DNA of 64,000 nucleotides from assembly GCF_028712165.1 (NCBI RefSeq), contig NZ_JAQTQR010000001.1, forward strand, positions 1-64,000. The letters are read 5' to 3'. The notes beneath the pieces were generated by a model. The model had not been told where the DNA came from. It did not search any database and saw only the letters and a program-made list of their open reading frames with translations. Source of the DNA: Sulfuricurvum sp. (GTDB lineage Bacteria; Campylobacterota; Campylobacteria; Campylobacterales; Sulfurimonadaceae). Position numbers and translations under genes: made by a program. Position 1 is the first letter of the stretch. Every line of letters starts with the position of its first letter. This document shows, piece by piece, positions 40,734 to 53,692 of the stretch.

Positions 40734-41377
40734 TACCAGTTCCTCGAATTGATCTGAATATTTCCGATATTAAATGAATGGTATTGCAGTGAGGCGATAC
40801 ACCCTTTGTGCTGGCTATCGCTGCCGTATCCGACCCTAACGAGGATGTATTTGGTATTTGAGGTTTGATTTGCCGCTTTGGGATTGGTGCTTAGGACAGC
40901 GGTTCCGGTTGCTGCGGGATCATCAACATAGAGTACGGTTGTTCCGATTGCAAAGAGCCCTTTTTTAAGCGTCGAGGAACAATTTTTATCGGCAGTGAGA
41001 TTGGTGTCGTGATAGTCGTCGATATCGTTACTTTCCGCATCTTCTTTTCCTATAGGACCGGCATTGTAAGCCGTGGTTTCGATACAGTTGCGTCCTCCTA
41101 CGAATCCTCCGATTCGGTAACCGGAAGTGAGATTGCAATCGTAGGCCGGATTTCCCGCATTGACGTTTAGGATTTGAGGATTTTGGGTGTTGTTGTTGTC
41201 CCACGGCAGATTGATGATAAGCCCCATCTGCGCCATTGCATCGTACATCGCCTCTTCTTTGATCGTTGTTTGGGTGCTTTGGTTCATCGACATGATTAAT
41301 CTGGGAATAACGGTAAATACGATCCCGATGATCACCATCGACAATATCAGTTCAATCAGTGTGAGACCTTTTCTCAT
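40733..41377 (-). CDS. Prepilin-type protein, minor pilin
   Basis: A 214-residue prepilin with leader MRKG and LTLIELILSMVIIGIVFTVI, Glu5 present. Several Cys occur in the globular part (YDCNLTSGYR, GRNCIETTAY, KNCSSTLKK, HKGCIASL), so it is probably disulfide-stabilised. It follows the large surface protein with an ATGA overlap, which places its synthesis under the same mRNA. Likely a minor pilin near the filament tip. Confidence 0.85.
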   Translation of the reverse strand: MRKGLTLIELILSMVIIGIVFTVIPRLIMSMNQSTQTTIKEEAMYDAMAQMGLIINLPWDNNNTQNPQILNVNAGNPAYDCNLTSGYRIGGFVGGRNCIETTAYNAGPIGKEDAESNDIDDYHDTNLTADKNCSSTLKKGLFAIGTTVLYVDDPAATGTAVLSTNPKAANQTSNTKYILVRVGYGSDSQHKGCIASLQYHSFNIGNIQINSRNW

Positions 41378-44300
41378 CGAAAGAGTTTTACCCCTTTATT
41401 GGTGATATTTTTAGCAGGGGTCATTTCAAAGTCACTTCCGTTAAAGGTACCGCTGTTTACTCCGGTAACTCCTGCATTGGCATTTGTATAGTCGTATTTG
41501 AAACATGGGTGTTGGGTACATGTTCCCGAATAGAGATAACCGTATGTCGAAGAATACCACAGCCATTTGCTAATGTCCAAATGGACGGTTTGATCGGCGG
41601 TTGAGGTGACTTTTATGATTTGTATCCCCTCTTGGGGTGCTGTGGTGACATCGATATTGCTATTAGAGGTTCCTGCACTAAAGCCTCCTTGGATCACATT
41701 CCCCTGATTGGCGGCGTCATGATTTAGGTTTCGGTACCAATGGAGAATATTTTGAGGCATACCGCTGACAAAACCGCCGGAGGTGGTACTGTAGACTTCA
41801 AATTCTATTGGCACATCAACAGGTGAAATATTGGTAGCAATATCGTATGCACGGACACGGCCGTAGACAAAGTGAGCGCTTCCCAACGGTGTGCCAGTTC
41901 CAGCGGTATCGGGATCGGTAGCGGTTGCCGAAGTAACAGTAAAATAAAACGGGTTTAGAGGTTTTGTCTCGTTTCGATCAAAATTTAGCTCTATATTGGG
42001 GGTTACGGTACCATTATTAAATAATCCGTTATTGAAGGTTAGTATCCACGGATCACCTTTGAGTACATTGGAATTTACGCCGCTTAACGCTTCAGAATAG
42101 AGAATTTTGCTGAGAGGGTCAGGAATAACAGAGTGTAGAAGTGTCACTGTCGTATCTTTGGAATAACACCCTTCCGTATAGTTTTGGGTGGTGATATTTT
42201 CATCATTTTTGGCGGTGATGATGAGGCCGAGCTGTGCCGACATATTGAGATCATTTGAGAGGTAGGTAAATCCGCCTCCGAAATTTGAGAGGGTTGCATT
42301 GACGTCAAAATGATCCGGTGTAATGTTCAACGAGAGATTGTTTTCAATGTTGCACCCGAGCAGCCCTTGAGCGTTCATTGTAGTCGTATTGCTATCAACG
42401 ATACAATCATTGCTCCGGTCTATAGTAGTCCATGTTGTGTCTTTTGTATTGAGGTAAATTATCCCCACATCGGTTGCTTTTGCCGTTGATGAATTATTGT
42501 CATTTTGAAAGAGAAGCGAAAACGGCTCAGTCGGACTTATACTTGATTTTAAAAATCCGCTTGATACAGGACAATTTGGATTTGGTACTTGAAGTTCCGT
42601 CGTCACATTTGCTGTGCCGTTGTATCCGGTTCCGCTATTGAGTGCAGAGATTTGTAACGTAAAATCAGCAGCTTTAGTCGATCCTGTCGGCGAGGTAATA
42701 CCAAATGAAGGAGGACGAATAGCAAAACTATCGCTTGAACAATATAATTCACTGGAATTGGTCTCAATCATGAGTTTGATATTGGAGTAAGCTTTGGCGA
42801 TGTTTAGATTAGGAATAGTAATGACTCTGTTGGTTTCGTTGATATCATATGCACCGTTGGATAGGAGGGTGAATAATTTTGGGGTAGTAGCGTTGCATGA
42901 GGCAGCCAAGGCGTCGATTGCATAAATATTCTTGATTTTTCGTGAGGGAATAGTACCGCTATCGGCACAGGCAACGGTTACATTCACGTCAAATGGTTGA
43001 TTTGCAATACGGGTTTGAAGCCGATAAGAAGGAGTTAGAGTCGTATCATAGCTGTGGTAGGGTTCATATTTGAATGAAGTACACTCTGTAACCAGTGTCC
43101 CTTGCTCAACACGGATATTATCAATCCAGCTACCGTATCCGTCATCGGATGATGAAGGCTCTTCAAAAGAAATTTTATCTATTCCGGCAGTTCCGGTGAC
43201 CTGTATTTGCGCGGTTTGCCATCCGGCAGTATTTCCTTCGACTTGCGTCACAGCAACGTCGTTCCATTTGGCGATTATGACATCGCTGTGGGAAGTGTCC
43301 CGTTTTCGATAATCAAACGAAATGATGTAGTTTGTCCCTGCAACTGTATCGAGTGTTTGCCATATTTTATCGACTTGACCGCCATTACCATCGATTTCAG
43401 TAAAGATGGTGCCATCGCTGGCTGCCGGGGCAGTAGTGTTTTCCCATGTTTCTAAATAGTAAGCGACATTCCATCCGCAAAGGCCGTCCCGCAAATGAAC
43501 GGTTCCACCGGCAACGCCGTCCCAGGTTTGTACAATATTCGAATTACACTGAATTTCAAAACTCGGATTGGCGATGAGGTTGCCTCCGGTCGGAAGACAG
43601 CAACATGGAAGTGTTCGTGCGGTTCCGTCATAATTATTTTTACTATTTTCGTTGGTATAGATATTTAAAATCTCTGAATCAGACAAGGTGGCATCAAAAA
43701 CTTTGAATTCATCAACACCGCCTTCGAGATAGGCATCAGCACTCCAGTTACTTTTTCCGATGTAATTTTTGGTCCGTGCGACGTTTGCAGGTATCTTCAT
43801 TGTCGTAGATTGAGCTATCATAACTCCGTCTTTGTAGAGTTTACATCCTCCGCTACCGTTGCAGGTAGCTCCCCAAAAATGCCAATTGGTATCTGAAATC
43901 GCATTGGAAGCTACCAAATAATTGTCAGCACCGGGGTCATGAATACCTAACACTAGATTATTCGTCGTCCCTTGTCTCCCTAAAAAGATATTGTTGAGAT
44001 TGGTTCCATTTCCAAAATCGAAGATTCGTTCCCATGATCCTGCACTAGAAAATTTAGCCCACGTCGTTACCGTAAAACCGTCATTGAAATTGGGTTGATT
44101 TTGAGAGAGGGTCGGAAGTTGGATGTATTGTTTATTGGTTCGGGTAAAAAGAGCTCCATTATTGATAATTTGTGCAGAAACCTGCGGAATAATGGTTCCA
44201 TTGTCACTTTTGGGAGTTGCATTATAGTAACTATTGCTACTATCGATTACTTCTCCATTGGTTCCGTTCCAAGCACATTCATCCATTCGGTATTCGGCAG

Positions 44301-46842
44301 CTGTTTGAATCGGAGAATAGCATGCGTTGATCGGACAGGAAGAGAGAGGAGAGTTGTCATAGCCGCTAGGCGCTATTCCGTTCCAAGAGTTACCGTTGAA
44401 GGTATGTGCCGTATTGTTGCGGTACGCGAACGGAGAAGTTCGGAAGCAGTTATTGGTTACTATGGCATTGTGTGACGGGTCAGAATCGATATTGACGGCG
44501 TTATTGGTATTGTTGGTGAATTTCGAATTTTTGATGGTAACATTGAGAGCATTCCAATCTGTTTTGATGCCGTACGTTGCAGCCGTGATACAGACATGAT
44601 CGATAGTAGCTGACGATGCAACAGGAATATAGATACCTGTCCCTCCCGCAGAGATAACAGTGTCTTTGATCGAAAGAATGTGCGCACTTCCCCAGCTTAG
44701 ATTGATGCCGTTATTATTTGTCGTCGCAATGAACCCCTGTCTGATTGTAGAATCCTGACCAAAAACGGCGTTTACACCGTAGGTTTTGGCAGTGATATTA
44801 AAGTTTTGCAGCAGGGTTATCCCAGAGGATGCATTAATACCTATTCCGTTTGTGGAGGTTATATTGATATCGCTCATATTCAAAGTTCCTGAATGTGCGA
44901 TATCGATACCGTTATCGTAGGATTGTATGGATATATTTGAAAAAATATGATTGCCTGATGCGTTGTAAGCTAACGTAATTCCTTTACCTGAAGAGGAAGA
45001 GATAGCAAGATTGGAAAAAGTGTTGTTTAAAGAATTTTGACCGAGATAAATACTATCTGTTTGTGCAGAAACAGAAAGGTTTTGAAAGGTGTGCGAACCG
45101 CTTCCTTGCCAATTATCCGTAATTCCGTAATTCGAAGTTCCTGTTGATGCAATAGAAAGATTTTTTATAGTTGCATCGGATGCTTTTATCGTGAGTCCCG
45201 CGGATGAAGCAGTATTGATCATAACATCGTCACGGTTACCGCTGTAGCCTTGCAGGGTAAGATTGTTTTGGGTAATGGCTAGATTGTTTTCTGTATACGT
45301 TCCTTTACAAATTTGGACAGTGTCTCCTGCCGTAGCTTTCGCAAGTGCGGCTGAGATGGTTGTAAACGATGCAGTGGGACATTCGACTTTATCATCATCG
45401 ACAAGTAAATTATAGACTTGAAACTGTGCGGTTGTTCCGGCTCCGTCATCATCAAGACCATCGGATGCAGCAGAAACGTTCACAGTATAGAGTGACGCTA
45501 CCGCAGGAGCCGAAAACTTGAGCGATAGCATACTGGTGGTATTAGTGGCTAACGCTCCGGTTGTCAGATTACAGTCAAGTGCAGTGGTGTTTTGTGTACA
45601 GCTCCAATTTACTGCTCCGTTGGTAAGTTGTTGAAACGTCATTCCGCTCGGAAGCGAAAGTGAAAGAACCGTATTTGGAGCAGAATCTGGTCCCTTATTG
45701 GAGACGTTTACATCCATTGTAAGCGATTCTGATTCCATGACGATTGAGGGCTGTATGGAGGCACTGACGCTGAGATTGGCATCGTTCACCACTCGGCTAA
45801 GGTCAAAAGATCGGCTGAATACAGCGATCGAGGCAGGTGCTAACGGATGGTCGCGTGTCGATAGCCCATAATCAGGACTTCCGGACCAGGCCCATTTGTT
45901 CCCTGAAATTTTACCGGATCCTTTTGCCCGTTTACTGTCTATCACAAGACCAATATTACGGCTGGTTTCGGCACATTTTCGAAACCAGCCGCCATATGAA
46001 GCGTTATTGATCGCTTTGGAAGCAATAAAGAGATAATTGCTTGTCGGAAAGGCGTTGTTGATAGAGATAGTTCGGCAGGTTTGATCGTATCCTCCAAAGA
46101 CATTTCCGGTCAGAAAGGTTTGGTAATAGACGGGATTTGTACCAGTATCGGTTGCGGTAAAACTGCCAAATTTGTTACTCTCAATGACGAAGTAGCCCAC
46201 TTTTTCGCTTTGGGTGATTGATATTCCGGTTTCAATAAAGTGGCTTTTATCTAAAGCAATTTGTGCTGAAGAAGAGGTAATGTTGTTAATGGTTTCGGTA
46301 ACCCATGGAATAGAGATGGCATTATTGGTTGTTCCTCTGCCTGTGGGGGTATTTCCTGAGGGCAATTCATTATTCATTGTCTGTAATTGGGTGATGACCG
46401 AAGGGGGTTGGCTGTAGGCATGACTGAACGTGAGGGTTGTCCAGCTGTTGGAAATTCGATCGTCATTTACCACATTGGAAATTGTTTTAATACCGGCCTC
46501 AACTTTGGTTCCATCGGGCAGCCGATATACCCCTACGGGGATTGCAACGTAATAGGCCGGGACATTGACATGGGGGCCGTCTTCATAAATACTTTCCATA
46601 ACTTTCGCGCAGAATCCGGTCGTCGTTACATTGGTCAGTTTGATAATGGCATTATTATTCCCGCTGTTATCCATCATCATATATACGACAGGAGGCTGGG
46701 AATAGGTTTGGCGGAAGTTTTGGCAGGTCGCCGCATTTTCGGAATTATCGATGGAGACCGCACCGCTCTCTAAACTGAGAGTTGCGGCATGGAGGAGATT
46801 AAAAGCAAACAAAAGTGTAAAAATAATAATTTTTAGATACAT
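41374..46842 (-). CDS. Giant MshQ-like surface protein: lead gene of the pilus operon
   Basis: An 1822-residue exported protein, started at the ATG at 46842 with a GGGAG ribosome site; a frame extension to 46881 lacks one. The signal peptide is YLKIIIFTLLFAFNLLHA. Two N-terminal segments share the phrase YSQPPxV. Residues 350-480 look like a DUF11-type Ig domain, 485-815 like a right-handed beta-helix with Ser/Asn-rich turns, 845-1065 like a LamG/concanavalin domain (DGFTVTTWAKFSSAG, YIGKSNW), and 1085-1240 like a DUF642-type domain (NPSFEIQ ... WIDNIRVEQG). The last 580 residues resemble MshQ. A CCC triplet sits at about 1074. Likely a pilus-tip adhesin or a protein exported with the pilus; domain names come from pattern, not search. 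Confidence 0.75.
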   Translation of the reverse strand: MYLKIIIFTLLFAFNLLHAATLSLESGAVSIDNSENAATCQNFRQTYSQPPVVYMMMDNSGNNNAIIKLTNVTTTGFCAKVMESIYEDGPHVNVPAYYVAIPVGVYRLPDGTKVEAGIKTISNVVNDDRISNSWTTLTFSHAYSQPPSVITQLQTMNNELPSGNTPTGRGTTNNAISIPWVTETINNITSSSAQIALDKSHFIETGISITQSEKVGYFVIESNKFGSFTATDTGTNPVYYQTFLTGNVFGGYDQTCRTISINNAFPTSNYLFIASKAINNASYGGWFRKCAETSRNIGLVIDSKRAKGSGKISGNKWAWSGSPDYGLSTRDHPLAPASIAVFSRSFDLSRVVNDANLSVSASIQPSIVMESESLTMDVNVSNKGPDSAPNTVLSLSLPSGMTFQQLTNGAVNWSCTQNTTALDCNLTTGALATNTTSMLSLKFSAPAVASLYTVNVSAASDGLDDDGAGTTAQFQVYNLLVDDDKVECPTASFTTISAALAKATAGDTVQICKGTYTENNLAITQNNLTLQGYSGNRDDVMINTASSAGLTIKASDATIKNLSIASTGTSNYGITDNWQGSGSHTFQNLSVSAQTDSIYLGQNSLNNTFSNLAISSSSGKGITLAYNASGNHIFSNISIQSYDNGIDIAHSGTLNMSDINITSTNGIGINASSGITLLQNFNITAKTYGVNAVFGQDSTIRQGFIATTNNNGINLSWGSAHILSIKDTVISAGGTGIYIPVASSATIDHVCITAATYGIKTDWNALNVTIKNSKFTNNTNNAVNIDSDPSHNAIVTNNCFRTSPFAYRNNTAHTFNGNSWNGIAPSGYDNSPLSSCPINACYSPIQTAAEYRMDECAWNGTNGEVIDSSNSYYNATPKSDNGTIIPQVSAQIINNGALFTRTNKQYIQLPTLSQNQPNFNDGFTVTTWAKFSSAGSWERIFDFGNGTNLNNIFLGRQGTTNNLVLGIHDPGADNYLVASNAISDTNWHFWGATCNGSGGCKLYKDGVMIAQSTTMKIPANVARTKNYIGKSNWSADAYLEGGVDEFKVFDATLSDSEILNIYTNENSKNNYDGTARTLPCCCLPTGGNLIANPSFEIQCNSNIVQTWDGVAGGTVHLRDGLCGWNVAYYLETWENTTAPAASDGTIFTEIDGNGGQVDKIWQTLDTVAGTNYIISFDYRKRDTSHSDVIIAKWNDVAVTQVEGNTAGWQTAQIQVTGTAGIDKISFEEPSSSDDGYGSWIDNIRVEQGTLVTECTSFKYEPYHSYDTTLTPSYRLQTRIANQPFDVNVTVACADSGTIPSRKIKNIYAIDALAASCNATTPKLFTLLSNGAYDINETNRVITIPNLNIAKAYSNIKLMIETNSSELYCSSDSFAIRPPSFGITSPTGSTKAADFTLQISALNSGTGYNGTANVTTELQVPNPNCPVSSGFLKSSISPTEPFSLLFQNDNNSSTAKATDVGIIYLNTKDTTWTTIDRSNDCIVDSNTTTMNAQGLLGCNIENNLSLNITPDHFDVNATLSNFGGGFTYLSNDLNMSAQLGLIITAKNDENITTQNYTEGCYSKDTTVTLLHSVIPDPLSKILYSEALSGVNSNVLKGDPWILTFNNGLFNNGTVTPNIELNFDRNETKPLNPFYFTVTSATATDPDTAGTGTPLGSAHFVYGRVRAYDIATNISPVDVPIEFEVYSTTSGGFVSGMPQNILHWYRNLNHDAANQGNVIQGGFSAGTSNSNIDVTTAPQEGIQIIKVTSTADQTVHLDISKWLWYSSTYGYLYSGTCTQHPCFKYDYTNANAGVTGVNSGTFNGSDFEMTPAKNITNKGVKLFR

Positions 46843-46869
46843 TTGCTCCCCTTTCTCCAACCTGATATT

Positions 46870-46896
46870 ATTATAATACAAATTGACTCAATTATA
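46870..46896 (-). promoter_or_regulatory. Candidate -10 boxes of the pilus operon
   Basis: On the minus strand TATAAT occurs at 46896-46891 and at 46875-46870, about 50 and 28 bases before the ATG at 46842. The second lies in a self-complementary ATTATAAT (46870-46877), so it also reads TATAAT on plus. No sigma-54 element is visible, so the pilus operon is not under the flagellar regulon by this evidence. Confidence 0.45.
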
Positions 46897-46981: not shown

Positions 46982-48649
46982 ATGAAACACGCATCCGCGG
47001 GCAAATATCGCCCTTATCCACAAGTTGATTTGCCAAATCGTATTTGGCCATCTCGTACCATCACGCACGCCCCTATCTGGTGCAGTGTCGATCTTCGCGA
47101 CGGAAACCAGGCGTTGATCACCCCGATGAATTTGGATCAAAAACTTTCTCTTTTCAAACTCTTGCTGAAACTCGGATTTAAAAATATTGAAGTGGGATTT
47201 CCTTCCGCCTCGAAGGTCGAATTTGATTTCTTGCGCACCTTGGTCGAGCAAAAATTGATTCCCGATGACGTTACGGTTCAGGTCCTCGTTCAAGCGCGCG
47301 AACACTTGATCGACAAAACGTTCGAGGCCCTTGCGGGGGTCAAAAAAGCGATCGTCCATTTGTACAACTCGACGTCGGTGGCGCAGCGTAAGATCGTCTT
47401 TGGAAAAGAACAGGATGAGATTATCGCATTGGCATTAGAGGGTGTCGATATGGTCAAAGCCCGTGTGGCCAAGCACGACGGCGAGATCATGCTCGAATAT
47501 TCTCCCGAGAGTTTTACAGGTACGGAGCTTGAATTTGCCGCCCGTATCTGTAACGCCGTGACCGATCGATGGGGAATCAGCGCTGAGCGCAAAGTCGTGA
47601 TCAATCTCCCCGCAACGGTCGAGATGGCGACACCGAACGTCTATGCCGATCAGATCGAGTGGATGAGCCGTCATTTGACGAATCGCGAGCACGTATTGAT
47701 CTCGACCCATACCCATAATGACCGCGGAACCTCGGTTGCCGCGACGGAACTTGCCTTGTTGGCGGGTGCCGATCGTGTCGAGGGGACGTTGCTCTCTAAC
47801 GGCGAACGCACCGGAAACGTCGATATCATCACGTTGGCGCTTAATATGTACACCCAAGGGGTTGATCCGGAATTGGATTTCAGCGATTTGGAGACGGTTG
47901 TTCGGGTTGTCGAAGAGTGTACCGATATGAAAACCCATGAGCGTCATCCGTACGTCGGCGAGTTGGTGTACACGGCGTTTTCAGGGTCACACCAAGACGC
48001 GATCAACAAAGGGTTGGCGTATCAACGAGCCAAAGAGGACGCATTCTGGGAAGTACCGTATTTGCCGATCGATCCGTCGGATGTGGGGCGTAACTACGAG
48101 GGGATTATCCGAATCAATTCCCAATCGGGCAAGGGGGGCGTAGCCTATGTCCTCGAAGATAAATTCGAGTACTCGCTTCCGAAAAAAATGCATCCGGAAA
48201 TCGGGCGCATCGTTCAACAGGTGACTGACGAAGCGGGGCGCGAACTCTCCAGCGAAGAGATTTTGGCCATTTTTGAAAAGACCTATTTCGGCGAACCGCA
48301 TGACATCGAGTTTGTTGACTACTCTGTAATTTCGGAGAGTGCAAAAGACAAACTCGTCAAATGTGTCCTCGAATACACCCATAACGGGAAAACGATCCGA
48401 AGCGAGGGGCAGGGGAACGGTCCTATCGATGCGTGCAAAAATGCATTGATGCAGGAATATTCGCATAATTTCAAAGTCCTCTCGTACTCTGAGCATTCAC
48501 GCGGAGAGCTTTCCAGCGCCGAAGCAGTCGCCTATATCGAGATTCAAACAGACAGTCTGGAGAAATTTTTCGGTGTCGGGTGCGATAACGATATTACGGT
48601 CGCTTCGATCAAAGCGATGTTTAGCGCATTGAATCGGGCGTTTTCGTAA
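46982..48649 (+). CDS. leuA: 2-isopropylmalate synthase, type 2
   Basis: First committed enzyme of leucine synthesis: acetyl-CoA plus 2-ketoisovalerate gives 2-isopropylmalate. It has 555 residues, the length of the second LeuA type. Marks are the N-terminal PQVDLPNRIWPSRTITHAP, the metal-site DLRDGNQAL, and HTHNDRGTSVAATELALLAG. A C-terminal regulatory domain ends VASIKAMFSALNRAFS. The gene uses GC-rich codons more than its neighbours. Its last 50 bases recur, diverged, at 50986-51035, which suggests that this 3' end was a recombination site. Confidence 0.95.
   Translation: MKHASAGKYRPYPQVDLPNRIWPSRTITHAPIWCSVDLRDGNQALITPMNLDQKLSLFKLLLKLGFKNIEVGFPSASKVEFDFLRTLVEQKLIPDDVTVQVLVQAREHLIDKTFEALAGVKKAIVHLYNSTSVAQRKIVFGKEQDEIIALALEGVDMVKARVAKHDGEIMLEYSPESFTGTELEFAARICNAVTDRWGISAERKVVINLPATVEMATPNVYADQIEWMSRHLTNREHVLISTHTHNDRGTSVAATELALLAGADRVEGTLLSNGERTGNVDIITLALNMYTQGVDPELDFSDLETVVRVVEECTDMKTHERHPYVGELVYTAFSGSHQDAINKGLAYQRAKEDAFWEVPYLPIDPSDVGRNYEGIIRINSQSGKGGVAYVLEDKFEYSLPKKMHPEIGRIVQQVTDEAGRELSSEEILAIFEKTYFGEPHDIEFVDYSVISESAKDKLVKCVLEYTHNGKTIRSEGQGNGPIDACKNALMQEYSHNFKVLSYSEHSRGELSSAEAVAYIEIQTDSLEKFFGVGCDNDITVASIKAMFSALNRAFS
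48600..48649 (+). repeat. Direct repeat, copy 1: last 50 bases of leuA
   Basis: This segment and 50986-51035 align without gaps over 50 bases with 38 identities: the first 13 and 17 of the last 18 match. It includes the leuA stop codon. The two copies bound a 2.3-kb block of accessory genes. Confidence 0.7.
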
Positions 48650-48657
48650 TTCTTCTT

Positions 48658-48685
48658 GTCATTCCGTGCTTGACACGGAATCTAT
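48658..48685. repeat. REP-like palindrome 1 after leuA
   Basis: GTCATTCC...GGAATCTAT frame: ATTCCGTG (48661-48668) pairs with CACGGAAT (48674-48681) around CTTGA, followed by T-rich DNA. It can act as the leuA terminator. The form resembles the GTCATTCC/GGAATCC intergenic palindromes of many proteobacteria. Confidence 0.6.
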
Positions 48686-48699
48686 TTATTTTTATCTTC

Positions 48700-48727
48700 G
48701 TCATCCCCGATCAGGTCGGGAATCCAT
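48700..48727. repeat. REP-like palindrome 2
   Basis: Begins GTCATCCC and ends GGGAATCCAT, with CCCGA (48706-48710) pairing with TCGGG (48716-48720). It shares the ends GTCATYCC and GGAATCYAT with palindrome 1, 14 bases upstream. The pair therefore looks like two units of one repeat family. Confidence 0.55.
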
Positions 48728-48745
48728 TATTTATTCTTATTTGTC

Positions 48746-49471
48746 TTAATTATGCAATTTTGTCATGCCATACTCATAATGAGCACAAGCTTCAATCCCT
48801 TTTCCCTCTTTATTAAAATCCTTATTGTAGCCATCTTTTAAATAGGTCAAAATATTTGTAAGACGTTTAATTGTTTTATCTAGTTTAAAATCAACTTTGA
48901 TCATGGGATTTGGATAAATTGGAGCATTACCTTTCGAAGGTTCAGGTTTAAAGAAATTTTTTCGAGCTGCCCTAAGATGTGTATGCAATGTGTTGATATG
49001 TAAATATACAAAATGAACATTAGTAAGGATGTCATTGTGAGTAATTGATACAATATCTTGACTTTTCAATTCAGTCAATAATTTATAAATATCTTCAACA
49101 CTATCAAGAATTCTATCGAAGTCAAGGTAGGTAATTTTTTCTTTAGATTTTTCATTCTCTAGTGACATTAATCTTGATTTTATTAAACATAGTTGAAAAA
49201 ATGTATTTCTAATTTGATTTGAAATTTCTCGATTTTTTATATTAACGGTAGTCTCAATATTCAAAACAACAGAATAAGAAGCAAGAAGTGCGGATATAAG
49301 TATGCCTAATGCACCGATTAAAGATAGATTTTCTTGCCAAGTTTGATATATTAAATAGGAAATTACTATTATCAAAACTAAGGCAAAACTTCTCAGTATT
49401 TTAATAATTCTACTTGTTGGAATTTTTGCAAATAATATTTTTTGAATTTTATTCATTTGATTGAAATTCAC
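48746..49471 (-). CDS. Hypothetical membrane protein, AT-rich
   Basis: A 241-residue protein of unknown function. Two membrane helices lie at about 29-45 and 50-70 (LIGALGILISALLASYSVVL). The remaining 170 residues are mostly helical and presumably cytoplasmic. The start may be GTG at 49471, overlapping the DUF2442 stop, or ATG at 49456. Codons are much more AT-rich than in leuA or alaS, suggesting transfer. The layout recalls two-helix plus helical-domain membrane proteins of defence or stress islands, but no family is recognised. Confidence 0.7.
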   Translation of the reverse strand: MNFNQMNKIQKILFAKIPTSRIIKILRSFALVLIIVISYLIYQTWQENLSLIGALGILISALLASYSVVLNIETTVNIKNREISNQIRNTFFQLCLIKSRLMSLENEKSKEKITYLDFDRILDSVEDIYKLLTELKSQDIVSITHNDILTNVHFVYLHINTLHTHLRAARKNFFKPEPSKGNAPIYPNPMIKVDFKLDKTIKRLTNILTYLKDGYNKDFNKEGKGIEACAHYEYGMTKLHN

Positions 49472-49761
49472 GCCGCTTCGTTTGAATTATCTCGAAAATC
49501 CCCAATATTTTTGTTTTCATAGAGATCGGCAATAGGAAAACATAAATCGTAATCGTTCCATTCCAAATCACCATCGGTGATCGAAAAGTTTTTAAATAAT
49601 GCCAAATCAGAATATTTGGCAATGTGCGGGTTATGGGAGGTACGGATAAAGTTTTCAAAATTGATCGTTTGTGTCGTTTGATCGTTAAAATGCAAACGAA
49701 TTTTGTATCCGTCTATATACTCAGCGTTTTCGATGATTATGATTTGACCTTCGGTAATCAT
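49468..49761 (-). CDS. DUF2442 protein
   Basis: A 97-residue DUF2442 protein. The pattern is that of the family: DGYKIRLHFNDQTTQTINFE (strand, D-G, 'fedG' type turn) and the later SITDGDLEWNDYDLCFPIADLYE, corresponding to 'G.i.W..g.dl.pe.Ly'. Molecular function unknown. It overlaps the DUF4160 gene by four bases (ATGA). DUF2442 and DUF4160 genes are commonly paired, and a toxin-antitoxin-like role has been suspected but is not shown. Confidence 0.85.
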   Translation of the reverse strand: MITEGQIIIIENAEYIDGYKIRLHFNDQTTQTINFENFIRTSHNPHIAKYSDLALFKNFSITDGDLEWNDYDLCFPIADLYENKNIGDFRDNSNEAA

Positions 49762-50063
49762 TTTACTTTTCCTTCTATTTTGATGCAGTTAACTTGTTTG
49801 TGCAAGACAAAATAATCAATCCATTTTTGGACAATTTCACTCTGAAACGTTTCAACCAATTTTTGGAACTCTCTAAGTTCATTTGATGGTAAAGGTCTTT
49901 TTCCTTTGACCTCTTTGATAATAATTTTAGAAATTTTACCATCGATAATAATGAACTCGGCTTTGGACTCGCACCCTTGGTATTTGCCGTGAACGTGCAC
50001 TGGTTCGTGCTCGTTGCTGTAAAAAAGTATAGAAATCCCTAAATATTCAAAAATTTTGGGCAC
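49758..50063 (-). CDS. DUF4160 protein
   Basis: A 101-residue DUF4160 protein. The family start MPKIFEYLGISILFYSNEHE and the His-rich turn EPVHVHGKYQG are clear; the end normally carries a KIEPL-type tail, here IKIEGKVK. The start is GTG at 50063 with AAGGAG upstream. It forms a two-gene unit with the DUF2442 gene. Function unknown. A collapsed homologue lies divergently at 50165. Confidence 0.85.
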   Translation of the reverse strand: MPKIFEYLGISILFYSNEHEPVHVHGKYQGCESKAEFIIIDGKISKIIIKEVKGKRPLPSNELREFQKLVETFQSEIVQKWIDYFVLHKQVNCIKIEGKVK

Positions 50064-50089
50064 ATATACTCCTTTTACTTGATGCTATA

Positions 50090-50112
50090 AGTATATCAAA
50101 ATGCAATATAAT
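50090..50112. promoter_or_regulatory. Divergent -10 boxes between the two DUF4160/DUF2442 modules
   Basis: TATACT on the minus strand at 50095-50090 lies 27 bases before the DUF4160 GTG. TATAAT on the plus strand at 50107-50112 lies 53 bases before the ATG of the DUF4160 remnant and serves the plus-strand DUF2442 gene. The intergenic DNA is otherwise AT-rich and featureless. Confidence 0.4.
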
Positions 50113-50164
50113 ATCACCTACAGATAGCACATCGTTACAATAACCGATAAAAAGGAAGTTGACG

Positions 50165-50222
50165 ATGCCTGAAATTAGCTCAAAACGATCAAAGACCGGA
50201 AAAAATTGAACCCTTGAAATAA
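50165..50222 (+). pseudogene. DUF4160 remnant: head and tail joined by a deletion
   Basis: An ATG at 50165 with AAAAGGAAG upstream begins MPEISSK, like the start of DUF4160 proteins (MPxIS). The frame stops after 14 codons. One base off-frame, from 50187, the DNA reads DQRPEKIEPLK and then TAA (50220-50222), like the usual KIEPL end of the family. So about 60 bases hold the first few and last dozen codons of a gene of about 90 codons, joined out of frame. It sits just before a DUF2442 gene, exactly where a DUF4160 partner is expected. Confidence 0.65.
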
Positions 50223-50233
50223 GGAGTAGTAAA

Positions 50234-50467
50234 ATGAAATACACCGTTGTCGATGCACATTATTTACATGATTACAAAATCGATATGACTTTCGAAGACG
50301 GTAAACATGGTGTTGTTGATCTTTTAGAATATACCAAGCGCGGTGGAGTGTTTGCCAATTTCGGGCACATTGATTATTTTAAAATTTTTACTATCGATTA
50401 CGGGACATTAGTTTGGGACGGTGAAGTAGATATCGCACCTGAACGACTCTACGAAAAAGCCGTCTAA
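50234..50467 (+). CDS. DUF2442 protein
   Basis: A 77-residue DUF2442 protein with the typical sequence: YLHDYKIDMTFEDGKHGVVD, FANFGHIDYFKIFTIDYGT and LVWDGEVDIAPERLYEKA. AAGGAG precedes the ATG. Its DUF4160 partner has collapsed to a remnant directly upstream. It is therefore an orphan half of the module whose intact form lies divergently at 49468-50063. Function unknown. Confidence 0.88.
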   Translation: MKYTVVDAHYLHDYKIDMTFEDGKHGVVDLLEYTKRGGVFANFGHIDYFKIFTIDYGTLVWDGEVDIAPERLYEKAV

Positions 50468-50513
50468 CGCTCACTCTTCTAATAATATCAGCTACAAATT
50501 AAAAGGAAAAATT

Positions 50514-50978
50514 ATGGAAAACGAAGAAGTCGAATATGCAGGATTTTGGATTAGGTCGGGTGCTACTTTGATAGATACTATTTTGTTTTTGATGATTGCA
50601 TGGCCTTTATTATTCATGATCTACGGTAGCGATTATTTGGAAATGAGTTCTAATAGCTTAGCAATAGGTCCTGCGGATGCAGTTATAAATTATATTTTCC
50701 CTCTTGTTGCTGCTGTCATCTTATGGGTAAACAAAGCCGGAACGCCTGGAAAATTAGTCCTTGGATTACGAGTAGTCGATGCTCAATCCGGTGAGCATCT
50801 AAGTTTTGGACAAGCAATCGGGAGATATTTTGCTTACATTCCTGCCATGATTCCACTGATGATGGGTCTTTTTTGGGTAGGTTGGGATAGCAAAAAACAA
50901 GGTTGGCATGATAAATTAGCGGGTACGGTGGTGATTAGACAAAAAAACCGTACCGAAAAAGTTCAGTTTTCAAAATAA
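50514..50978 (+). CDS. RDD-family membrane protein
   Basis: A 154-residue RDD protein with three membrane segments: one after the first charged block (GFWIRSGATLIDTILFLMIA), one at about 60-78, and one near 110-125. The family pattern continues with NKAGTPGKLVLGLRVVDAQS and DKLAGTVVI. The Arg-Asp-Asp triad is partly kept (R13, D18). RDD proteins are mostly unknown; some affect ion or stress tolerance. It ends just before the second leuA tail, making it the last gene of the patch. Confidence 0.85.
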   Translation: MENEEVEYAGFWIRSGATLIDTILFLMIAWPLLFMIYGSDYLEMSSNSLAIGPADAVINYIFPLVAAVILWVNKAGTPGKLVLGLRVVDAQSGEHLSFGQAIGRYFAYIPAMIPLMMGLFWVGWDSKKQGWHDKLAGTVVIRQKNRTEKVQFSK

Positions 50979-50985
50979 CATTATT

Positions 50986-51035
50986 TTCGCTTCGATCAAT
51001 ACAATCTACAATACGTTAAATCGGGCGTTTTTGTA
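50986..51035 (+). pseudogene. Diverged leuA 3'-end fragment (direct repeat, copy 2)
   Basis: The 50 bases align gaplessly with the last 50 of leuA (38 identities). In the same frame they read FASINTIYNTLNRAFL and stop, against VASIKAMFSALNRAFS in LeuA. The fragment therefore comes from the end of another leuA gene rather than from a recent copy of this one. No more leuA sequence lies before it. It suggests a leuA end displaced when the block 48650-50985 arrived. Confidence 0.65.
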
Positions 51036-51047
51036 ACCATTTTCTTT

Positions 51048-51066
51048 ATTCCCGCTTAGCCGGGAA
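51048..51066. repeat. Palindrome after the second leuA tail
   Basis: TTCCCG (51048-51053) pairs with CGGGAA (51061-51066) around CTTAGCC. It stands 12 bases after the stop of the leuA fragment, as palindrome 1 stands about 11 bases after the real leuA stop. It probably was that gene's terminator. Confidence 0.5.
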
Positions 51067-51098
51067 CGCTTCTAATTCCTCTTTAACGCCATCTTCGT

Positions 51099-51104
51099 TA
51101 TAAT
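51099..51104 (+). promoter_or_regulatory. -10 box of alaS
   Basis: CGTTATAATCGCG contains TATAAT 32 bases before the alaS ATG. It lies downstream of the leuA fragment and its palindrome, so alaS is transcribed on its own. The same CG-TATAATC-CG surrounding occurs before leuA. Confidence 0.6.
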
Positions 51105-51136
51105 CGCGCAATTTTTACCAGTATTGTGAGTAAACC

Positions 51137-53692
51137 ATGATGGATGTCCGCGAAGCCTTTTTGGCCTTTTTTGAATCAAAACAACACGAACGTGCCGCGA
51201 GTTCCCCACTCGTTCCCGATGATGCAACCTTGCTTTTCACCAATGCGGGAATGGTACCGTTCAAGTCGATCTTTACAGGGGATATACCGATTCCCTCTAA
51301 TCCTCGTGCGACCAGTGCGCAAACGTGTATCCGTGCCGGCGGCAAGCATAATGACTTAGAGAACGTCGGTCATACGGCGCGCCACCATACCTTTTTCGAA
51401 ATGCTCGGAAACTTCAGTTTCGGCGATTACTTCAAAGAGGAAGCGATTGCCTATGCATGGGAGTTTGTCACCGAAGTGATGAAATTGCCGAAAGAGAAAC
51501 TCTGGGTTACTGTCCATGAGAGCGATGACGAGGCCGAAGAAATTTGGAAAAAACACATTGCGGCGGATCGCATCATGCGTCTTGGGGATAAAGACAACTT
51601 CTGGCAGATGGGAGATACTGGGCCGTGCGGACCGTGTTCGGAAATCTTCATCGATCAGGGTGCGGAACACTTCAACGGACCGGAAGATTACATGGGGGGA
51701 GACGGTGACCGTTTCCTCGAAATCTGGAACCTCGTATTTATGCAGTATGAGCGCAATACCAAAGGCGAGTTGAACCCGTTGCCGAAACCATCGATCGATA
51801 CCGGTATGGGATTGGAACGGGCTACTGCGGTACTCGAAGGGGTAACCAGCAACTACGACAGTTCGCTGTTTATGCCGATTATCCGTAAAGTAGAATCTCT
51901 CATCAAAAAACCGTATGAATATGCAAGCGGTGCTTCATATCGCGTTATCGCCGATCATATCCGTACCGTTACATTCCTCCTTGCACAGGGGACAAACTTC
52001 TCGAACGAAGGGCGCGGATACGTGCTTCGCCGTATTTTGCGCCGTGCGGTTCGTCACGGGTATTTGCTCGGATTTACCAAACCGTTTATGTTTGAAGTTG
52101 CCGACACCGTTGCCGAGTTGATGGGGAAACAATACCCTTACATTGTTGAAAAACTTGCCGTCCTAAAAGAGCAAATCATGCTCGAAGAAGAACGTTTCTT
52201 TAAAACGATCGCATCGGGAATCGAACTCTTTAACGAAGAGCTCAAAAATACCAAAGAGATTTTCAGCGGAGAAGTGGCATTTAAACTCTACGATACGTTT
52301 GGATTCCCTCTCGATTTGACCGAAGATATGTTAAAAGAGAAAAATCTTTCCCTCGATGTGGAGACGTTTGAAACGCTTATGTCTGAACAGCGCAAGCGTG
52401 CAAAAGCGGCGTGGAAAGGTTCAGGGGATGCTCACGTAGAGGGGGATTTTAAAACCCTTCTCGAAACATTCGGTGTGAACTCGTTTATCGGATACGCCTA
52501 TACAAAAGCACCGGTTAAAATTCAAGCCCTTTTGGGTGAGAATTTCGAGCGTGTTGATCAGCTGCATGCACACCAAAGCGGTTGGGTGCTTCTCGAAGAG
52601 ACTCCGTTTTATGCTGAAAGCGGCGGACAATGCGGTGACAGCGGAACCCTCGGCGATAAAGCGGTCGTTACCGATACGAAAAAATTCCACGGCTTAAATC
52701 TTTCACACGTCGAGACCAAAGAAACCATCAGTGTCGGTGATACGGTCGAAGCGATCGTCGATCCTTCACGTAACGAAATTGCAAAACATCACTCGGCTAC
52801 GCACTTATTGCATGCTGCATTGTATGAGATTTTGGGTGAGCATATTTCACAAGCGGGTTCATTGGTCGAACACAATCGTCTCCGCTTTGACTTCTCCCAT
52901 CCTAAAGCGATGTCTCACGAAGAGATCGCTTTGGTCGAAGAGCGGGTCAATTATCATATCTTCCATGCGCTGGAAGGGATGACTCGTGAGATGAGCATCG
53001 ATGAAGCGAAAAAAAGCGGTGCGAAAGCGCAGTTCGGTGAAAAATACGGCGATACCGTACGTGTTGTTAATTTCGGAACGGCTTCGGTTGAGTTCTGCGG
53101 CGGTATCCATGTTGATAACACGGCAACTATCGGAACATTTGTAATCGTAAAAGAGAGCGGTGTGAGTGCCGGAGTACGCCGTATCGAAGCGGTATGCGGT
53201 AATGCGGCGTACAACCTCTTTAAATCGCAGCGCCATCTTCTCGAAGAGGTCGAAGCATCGGTTAAAAACCGCGATGTATTGGCAGGGATCGAGCGTCTTA
53301 AAGAGCAGGTGAAAACCCTCAAACATGAGATGTCAACATTGGCTTCTTCTACCAAAGAAGAACTCACAGTGACGATGATGGGCAATACCGCAGTTGTTGT
53401 TGCCGAACTCACAGCGGGAGATATCAAAGAACGTATCGATGAGCTCAAAAATCAGCACGATTCGGTTGCGGTAATCCTTTTCCAAGTCAAAGACGATAAA
53501 GTTCTTTTGGCAGCCGGTGCGAAAAATACGGCGCTCAAAGCGGGAGATTGGATCAAAGCTATCGCCCCTATCCTCGGAGGCGGGGGCGGCGGACGTCCTG
53601 ATTTCGCTCAGGCGGGCGGAAAAGATATCACAAAAATCGGCGATGCCAAAGAAGCGGCACTCGAGTATGTTACGAAGGAACTTTCCAAATGA
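51137..53692 (+). CDS. alaS: Alanyl-tRNA synthetase
   Basis: Class II synthetase that charges tRNA-Ala and clears mischarged Ser and Gly, 851 residues. The catalytic part has [29 protein letters not shown] and [10 protein letters not shown]. The editing domain has the zinc motif [12 protein letters not shown] and the later CGGIHVDNT. The C-terminal domain ends with [15 protein letters not shown]. The start could also be the second ATG at 51140. Its stop overlaps the next gene by four bases. Confidence 0.98.

Follow-up and report, generated by a model that had tools for sequence, protein, structure and literature searches.

In Helicobacter pylori, restriction-modification (RM) genes have been reported to insert with long target duplications (Nobusato et al. 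2000, as cited in PMC1643837 and PMC3874152). As far as those citations describe it, the inserted unit is a small addictive module that has no recombinase of its own and is flanked by long duplications of variable length (~100 bp). Here, we describe a comparable scar in the same phylum: an interval of accessory genes, including predicted toxin–antitoxin (TA) genes, that lies between two copies of the 3' end of leuA, upstream of alaS, in Sulfuricurvum (Campylobacterota). The stretch analyzed, called the window, comprises 64,000 nucleotides of a 2.72-Mb genome (G000). On balance, the sequence comparisons favor integrase-free insertion that duplicates a long stretch of target, the modules spreading by homologous recombination through a gene end that they carry. 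Unlike the H. pylori case as it is relayed in those citations, the Sulfuricurvum modules are predicted type II TA pairs (DUF4160/DUF2442, BrnT/BrnA, and ParE), and at sister sites the two copies of the gene end differ mainly by synonymous changes, which points to an imported end.

Three other described systems resemble parts of the scar. In the case of e14 at icd of Escherichia coli K-12 (PMC6379469), the incoming DNA also provides the 3'-terminal codons of the gene it enters, and the original end persists beyond the insert as a pseudogene; however, e14 is a prophage with a site-specific integrase, whereas the Sulfuricurvum inserts are modules of 0.5-0.75 kb without a visible integrase and occur at many genes. 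The ccdO157 module in the folA-apaH interval and parDE in the relA-mazG interval (PMC7167474, PMC2654758) likewise alternate with other small insertions between core genes, but in Sulfuricurvum the relict gene end and the empty sites expose the join. The mechanism by which TA systems integrate has been called unelucidated in a review (PMC7167474). The third system, DhiTA of Dickeya dadantii, is a DUF4160/DUF2442 pair listed as a type II TA system (PMC8198452). The pair in the window has the same two domains and overlapping genes, but it falls below the NCBIfam equivalog cut-offs, and its toxicity is predicted from sequence.

The leuA end repeat and the leuA-alaS interval

The last 50 bases of leuA were scanned, ungapped, against both strands of the whole window (128 kb). 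A preliminary description of this DNA had reported that the leuA tail recurs in frame and without gaps. The recurrence is real, with 38 of 50 bases identical, but its position had been given as 50986-51035, one base too low. The second-best place in the window reaches 30/50. The features at the two ends of the interval are as follows.

46982-48649, plus strand: leuA, alpha-isopropylmalate synthase, intact (Pfam HMGL-like, IPMS_D2, and LeuA_dimer)
48600-48649, plus strand: copy 1, the leuA 3' end in use
48662-48680: palindrome 3' of copy 1, TTCCGTG-CTTGA-CACGGAA, read from the sequence
50987-51036, plus strand: copy 2, the displaced leuA 3' end surviving as a relict, stop codon included
51049-51066: native leuA-alaS hairpin, TTCCCG...CGGGAA, also found in empty-site relatives
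51069-51136, plus strand: alaS upstream region, conserved at empty and occupied sites
51137-53692, plus strand: alaS

The reading frame of copy 2 closes on the same TAA as that of leuA (51034-51036). The palindromes that had been noted after both copies are present, and the second one is the native leuA-alaS hairpin. From ~50976 to 51136, the DNA is colinear and unbroken with that of empty-site relatives, across their leuA end, hairpin, and alaS promoter. The best match among these is G011 (94% over 118 bp), followed by G026, G006, G031, G030, G027, G036, and G008, so the earlier expectation that copy 2 should match the LeuA ends of relatives was borne out for the copy together with its downstream DNA. 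The C-terminus of LeuA, ITVASIKAMFSALNRAFS, is almost invariant across the genus; because copy 2 reads FASINTIYNTLNRAFL, it is not a working end. Its colinearity with the native downstream DNA of the empty sites identifies copy 2, by alignment, as the displaced original leuA 3' end, copy 1 being the end in current use. Of the 12 mismatches between the copies, 11 are concentrated within ~21 bases (50999-51020) with near-identical flanks, a pattern that uniform decay does not explain.

The interval was compared in ~33 genomes in which leuA and alaS are contiguous. Nine of these have an empty site, with a gap of 92-109 bp, ~11 have 138-344 bp, and 12 carry 0.7-3.5 kb of cargo. Thus, both predictions of the preliminary description, relatives with leuA directly before alaS and relatives with different cargo at the same point, were confirmed. 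The cargo is mainly TA-like, namely several subtypes of DUF4160/DUF2442 and BrnT with a CopG-type antitoxin (BrnT/BrnA), and its blocks are common to genomes in differing combinations, giving a mosaic. By these comparisons, the leuA-alaS interval is an insertion hot spot. In the other filled intervals, the best 50-mer match to the leuA end is at chance level, except in G015, which keeps ~24 bp (TTAATCGAGCATTTTTGTAA). No integrase is evident there in the open reading frame (ORF) lists, only part of these intervals having been searched by Pfam. Synteny is lost in G009 (L035/L051), where alaS is inverted and ~9 kb from leuA, and in G003 (L037/L052), where the two genes are on different contigs. 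A second LeuA-like gene (52-54% identical) is found in G007, G009, G011, G015, G016, G019, and G025.

Equivalent scars at other toxin-antitoxin loci

Direct repeats of 50, 81, 81, 84, 86, 101, and 106 bp, among others (overall range 46-115 bp), flank modules of this kind, and in most simple cases the insert is one TA module of 509-750 bp. At two sister loci, a DUF4160 locus in G002 and a ParE locus in G036, alignment with empty sites proves the scar. In G002, a DUF4160/DUF2442 module is flanked by a duplicated gene start (5' end) of 101 bp; the 401-bp empty sequence predicted from it is contiguous in G008 and G012, and in G002 it is interrupted, its two parts overlapping by 101 bp. In G036, a ParE module is flanked by a duplicated gene end; the site is split with an 81-bp overlap there and contiguous in G034, G027, and G001. 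The working gene end of G036 is CCT TAG at the new junction, and the far copy retains CCG TGA together with the native downstream DNA. This layout is that of the leuA scar. Further cases are the end of an endonuclease-like gene, duplicated around BrnTA in G015, G016, and G017, and a DUF4160/DUF2442 cassette within the leuA-alaS interval of G015, which stands between two copies (81 bp) of the 3' end of brnA. Neither a shared terminal motif nor inverted ends of the inserts were seen by eye.

The differences between the copies were classified by codon to distinguish an imported end from one duplicated in place. The synonymous share expected is ~0.24 for random change and ~0.39 when one copy decays while the other stays constrained (the latter being our own calculation). 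In five copy pairs from four sister sites, synonymous changes account for 7/10, 9/11, 4/5, 2/3, and 6/7 of the differences. The total of 28/36 differs from the 0.39 expectation with P = 2e-6, and the excess persists when the two BrnT sites are left out (22/28, P = 2e-5). Therefore, each of the two copies probably once ended a working gene, in separate lineages. Of the relatives compared with G017, all but one are closer to the relict than to the working end, and the remaining one is equally close to both. For G036, identity to the nearest relative is 77/81 for the far copy, which is the background level, versus 73/81 for the working end. Judged by these identities, the working end is the foreign copy at both sister sites. 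Together with the synonymous excess, the two comparisons indicate that the gene end arrived with the module.

In a survey, direct repeats spanning the module were found at 6/30 DUF4160 loci in the genus and 4/27 in the phylum, at 5/30 BrnT loci, and at 2/30 ParE loci; these figures still contain a few repeats that were discounted afterwards. Among genes unrelated to TA systems, the counts were 1/30 for GT2 (judged to be tandem paralogues), 0/30 for alaS, and 0/11 for RDD. Across bacteria, 21/75 DUF4160 loci have spanning direct repeats and 6/75 have inverted ones; inverted repeats around TA modules are rare in the genus. The repeats at L111 and L208 were discounted as common palindromic repeats and L172 as an inverted-repeat locus, and those at L090, L099, and L174 as possible assembly effects. 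At L099 (1825-2034), the reading frame of G004 alaS is broken by an exact 55-bp repeat, which probably arose in assembly. A small TA array was observed at L094 (1054-1815 and 2390-2436), where neighboring DUF4160/DUF2442 and RelE-like modules are each preceded by copies of one 47-84-bp repeat. At L108 (377-2007), 46-bp direct repeats upstream of trxA surround a RAYT-like transposase gene with flanking palindromes and a DUF4160/DUF2442 pair; G032 carries a different insert at this point.

Genes between the two leuA ends

The DNA between the copies has 26-38% GC versus 46-55% in leuA and alaS, in agreement with its earlier characterization as AT-rich. Its genes had also been regarded as being of unknown function, but Pfam searches of the cargo recognized a DUF4160/DUF2442 pair, a second DUF2442 protein, and an RDD protein. 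The genes are as follows.

48746-49471, minus strand: 241-amino acid protein, function not assigned; its only clear relative is in the same interval of G035, where it is broken by stops
49468-49761, minus strand: DUF2442 protein, DhiA-like predicted antitoxin (81-85% protein identity with G015, G018, and G022, same interval)
49758-50063, minus strand: DUF4160 protein, DhiT-like predicted toxin (92-97% protein identity with G015, G018, and G022)
50159-50233, plus strand: truncated DUF4160 gene, with an internal deletion of ~196 bp relative to G029
50234-50467, plus strand: DUF2442 protein, DhiA-like, orphaned by truncation of its partner (95% to the G029 protein)
50514-50978, plus strand: RDD-family membrane protein, lacking close relatives within the genus (~33% at best)

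The genes at 49468-49761 and 49758-50063 overlap, and both products score above the Pfam cut-off; their matches to the NCBIfam models for DhiT and DhiA are weak and under the equivalog cut-offs. The pair is a putative TA-like, DhiTA-like module. The deletion in the truncated DUF4160 gene is delimited by nucleotide matches between G000 and G029 (1443-1530/2836-2923 and 1524-1817/3120-3413). Three blocks of the interval recur in other genomes: the 241-amino acid gene in G035, the DUF2442/DUF4160 pair in G015, G018, and G022, and the second DUF2442 gene in G029. As reported earlier, no integrase was found in the interval, and Pfam detected no integrase or recombinase among the window cargo genes. 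No tRNA gene is present in the window. Upstream of leuA, the opposite strand encodes a very large (1835 amino acids) secreted-type repeat protein (41374-46881).

Proposed mechanism and rival explanations

Here, we propose a mechanism for the insertion based on the scar structures and the codon-level comparison. A small module would enter at the leuA end together with a second leuA tail that keeps the gene intact, and the original tail would be left on the far side of the module, where it decays. The module would bring part of a gene end along as its homology arm, so that no integrase is needed; homologous recombination at the same gene end in another genome would yield the order end-module-end. 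Further small modules, such as DhiTA-like pairs and other genes, would then gather at the hot spot. Once in place, the module could be lost again if the two ends recombined, and TA addiction would penalize such a loss. We infer the carried-end route for the leuA event itself, as well as the arriving molecule, which may have been a circle or a transformed fragment, and the origin of the first attachment of a module to a gene end.

Several results weigh against this proposal. The preliminary description had suggested that the gene end was supplied by the element itself. This is supported for the sister sites, given their synonymous differences and the foreign working end at two of them, but not for leuA itself, where identity binned against 29 relatives reveals no switch to a foreign tract in the gene body or copy 1, and where 5/13 changes between the copies are synonymous. 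That ratio fits plain duplication and decay equally well; the decay of copy 2 is too advanced for this measure to separate an imported end from one duplicated in place. The interval between the leuA copies is 2.3 kb long and holds the RDD gene and the 241-amino acid gene beside the TA-like genes, and it is the RDD gene that adjoins the relict. In a within-locus control, spanning repeats exceed non-spanning ones only modestly in the genus and phylum (9/97 versus 7/194, P = 0.045), and across bacteria the figures are 9/44 and 10/88 (P = 0.13). Since accessory regions are rich in repeats anyway, repeat frequency alone does not carry the claim, which rests on the empty sites and the synonymous changes. 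Neither a circular intermediate nor transfer was observed.

The strongest rival is a long target duplication made in place, after which TA modules persist since their loss by recombination between the repeats is punished. The variable length of the duplications (46-115 bp) around single modules, the lack of a terminal motif shared by the inserts by eye, the use of both 5' and 3' gene ends, and the window leuA copies, which fit duplication plus decay, all agree with it. This account is nevertheless unlikely for the scars as a whole, given the strong synonymous excess at the sister sites and the foreign working copy at two of them, which argue for an imported gene end; in-place duplication may still have been the founding event. 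Allelic replacement, in which incoming chromosomal DNA recombined within leuA and joined illegitimately on the other side, leaving part of the old end by chance, would account for the reshuffled cargo blocks common to species at the locus and for the imported ends at sister sites. It gives no account of the same complete-gene-end scar around minimal TA modules at unrelated sites, and we regard it as improbable.

A remnant of an integrative element or prophage satellite, inserted at the leuA 3' end by a tyrosine integrase that was later lost, would leave a like footprint, as e14 does at icd, with a new gene end supplied and the old one left as a relict. However, Pfam recognizes no integrase-like gene in the window interval, and the ORF lists of the other filled intervals, which were searched in part, show no evident one. 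The target genes and lengths are many, and the events proved against empty sites are ~0.6 kb; the probability of this reading is lower still. The comparison to islands at tRNA or protein-gene 3' ends, drawn in the preliminary description, is not supported: the window interval lacks an integrase-like gene, the proved events are single TA modules of 0.5-0.75 kb, the duplications vary from 46 to 115 bp, and 5' ends are used too. An integron cassette array is likewise not supported, as the genes lie in both orientations and the window cargo includes no integrase. That an AT-rich stretch resembles the leuA tail by chance might be suspected from the 12 of 50 differing bases, 11 of them within ~21 bases. 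The probability of this is negligible with a runner-up of 30/50 in 128 kb and colinearity into the native hairpin and alaS promoter, and the empty-site alignment refutes it.

Integrase-free insertion on a carried gene end bears on how TA modules move without an integrase of their own. In a literature search, the long-target-duplication scar was not found for TA modules beyond citations of the RM work, and its extension from RM genes to TA modules looks new. At the leuA relict and the sister sites, the joins are precise, empty sites are available for comparison, and a codon-level test can tell in-place duplication from an imported gene end. Tentatively, small TA modules may more generally be integrase-free mobile cassettes, each carrying a gene end as homology arm, entering the same gene end of other species by host recombination while keeping the gene working, and being locked in by toxin release upon deletion. 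The scar sites would also suggest a simple explanation for the survival of TA modules in unstable direct-repeat settings.

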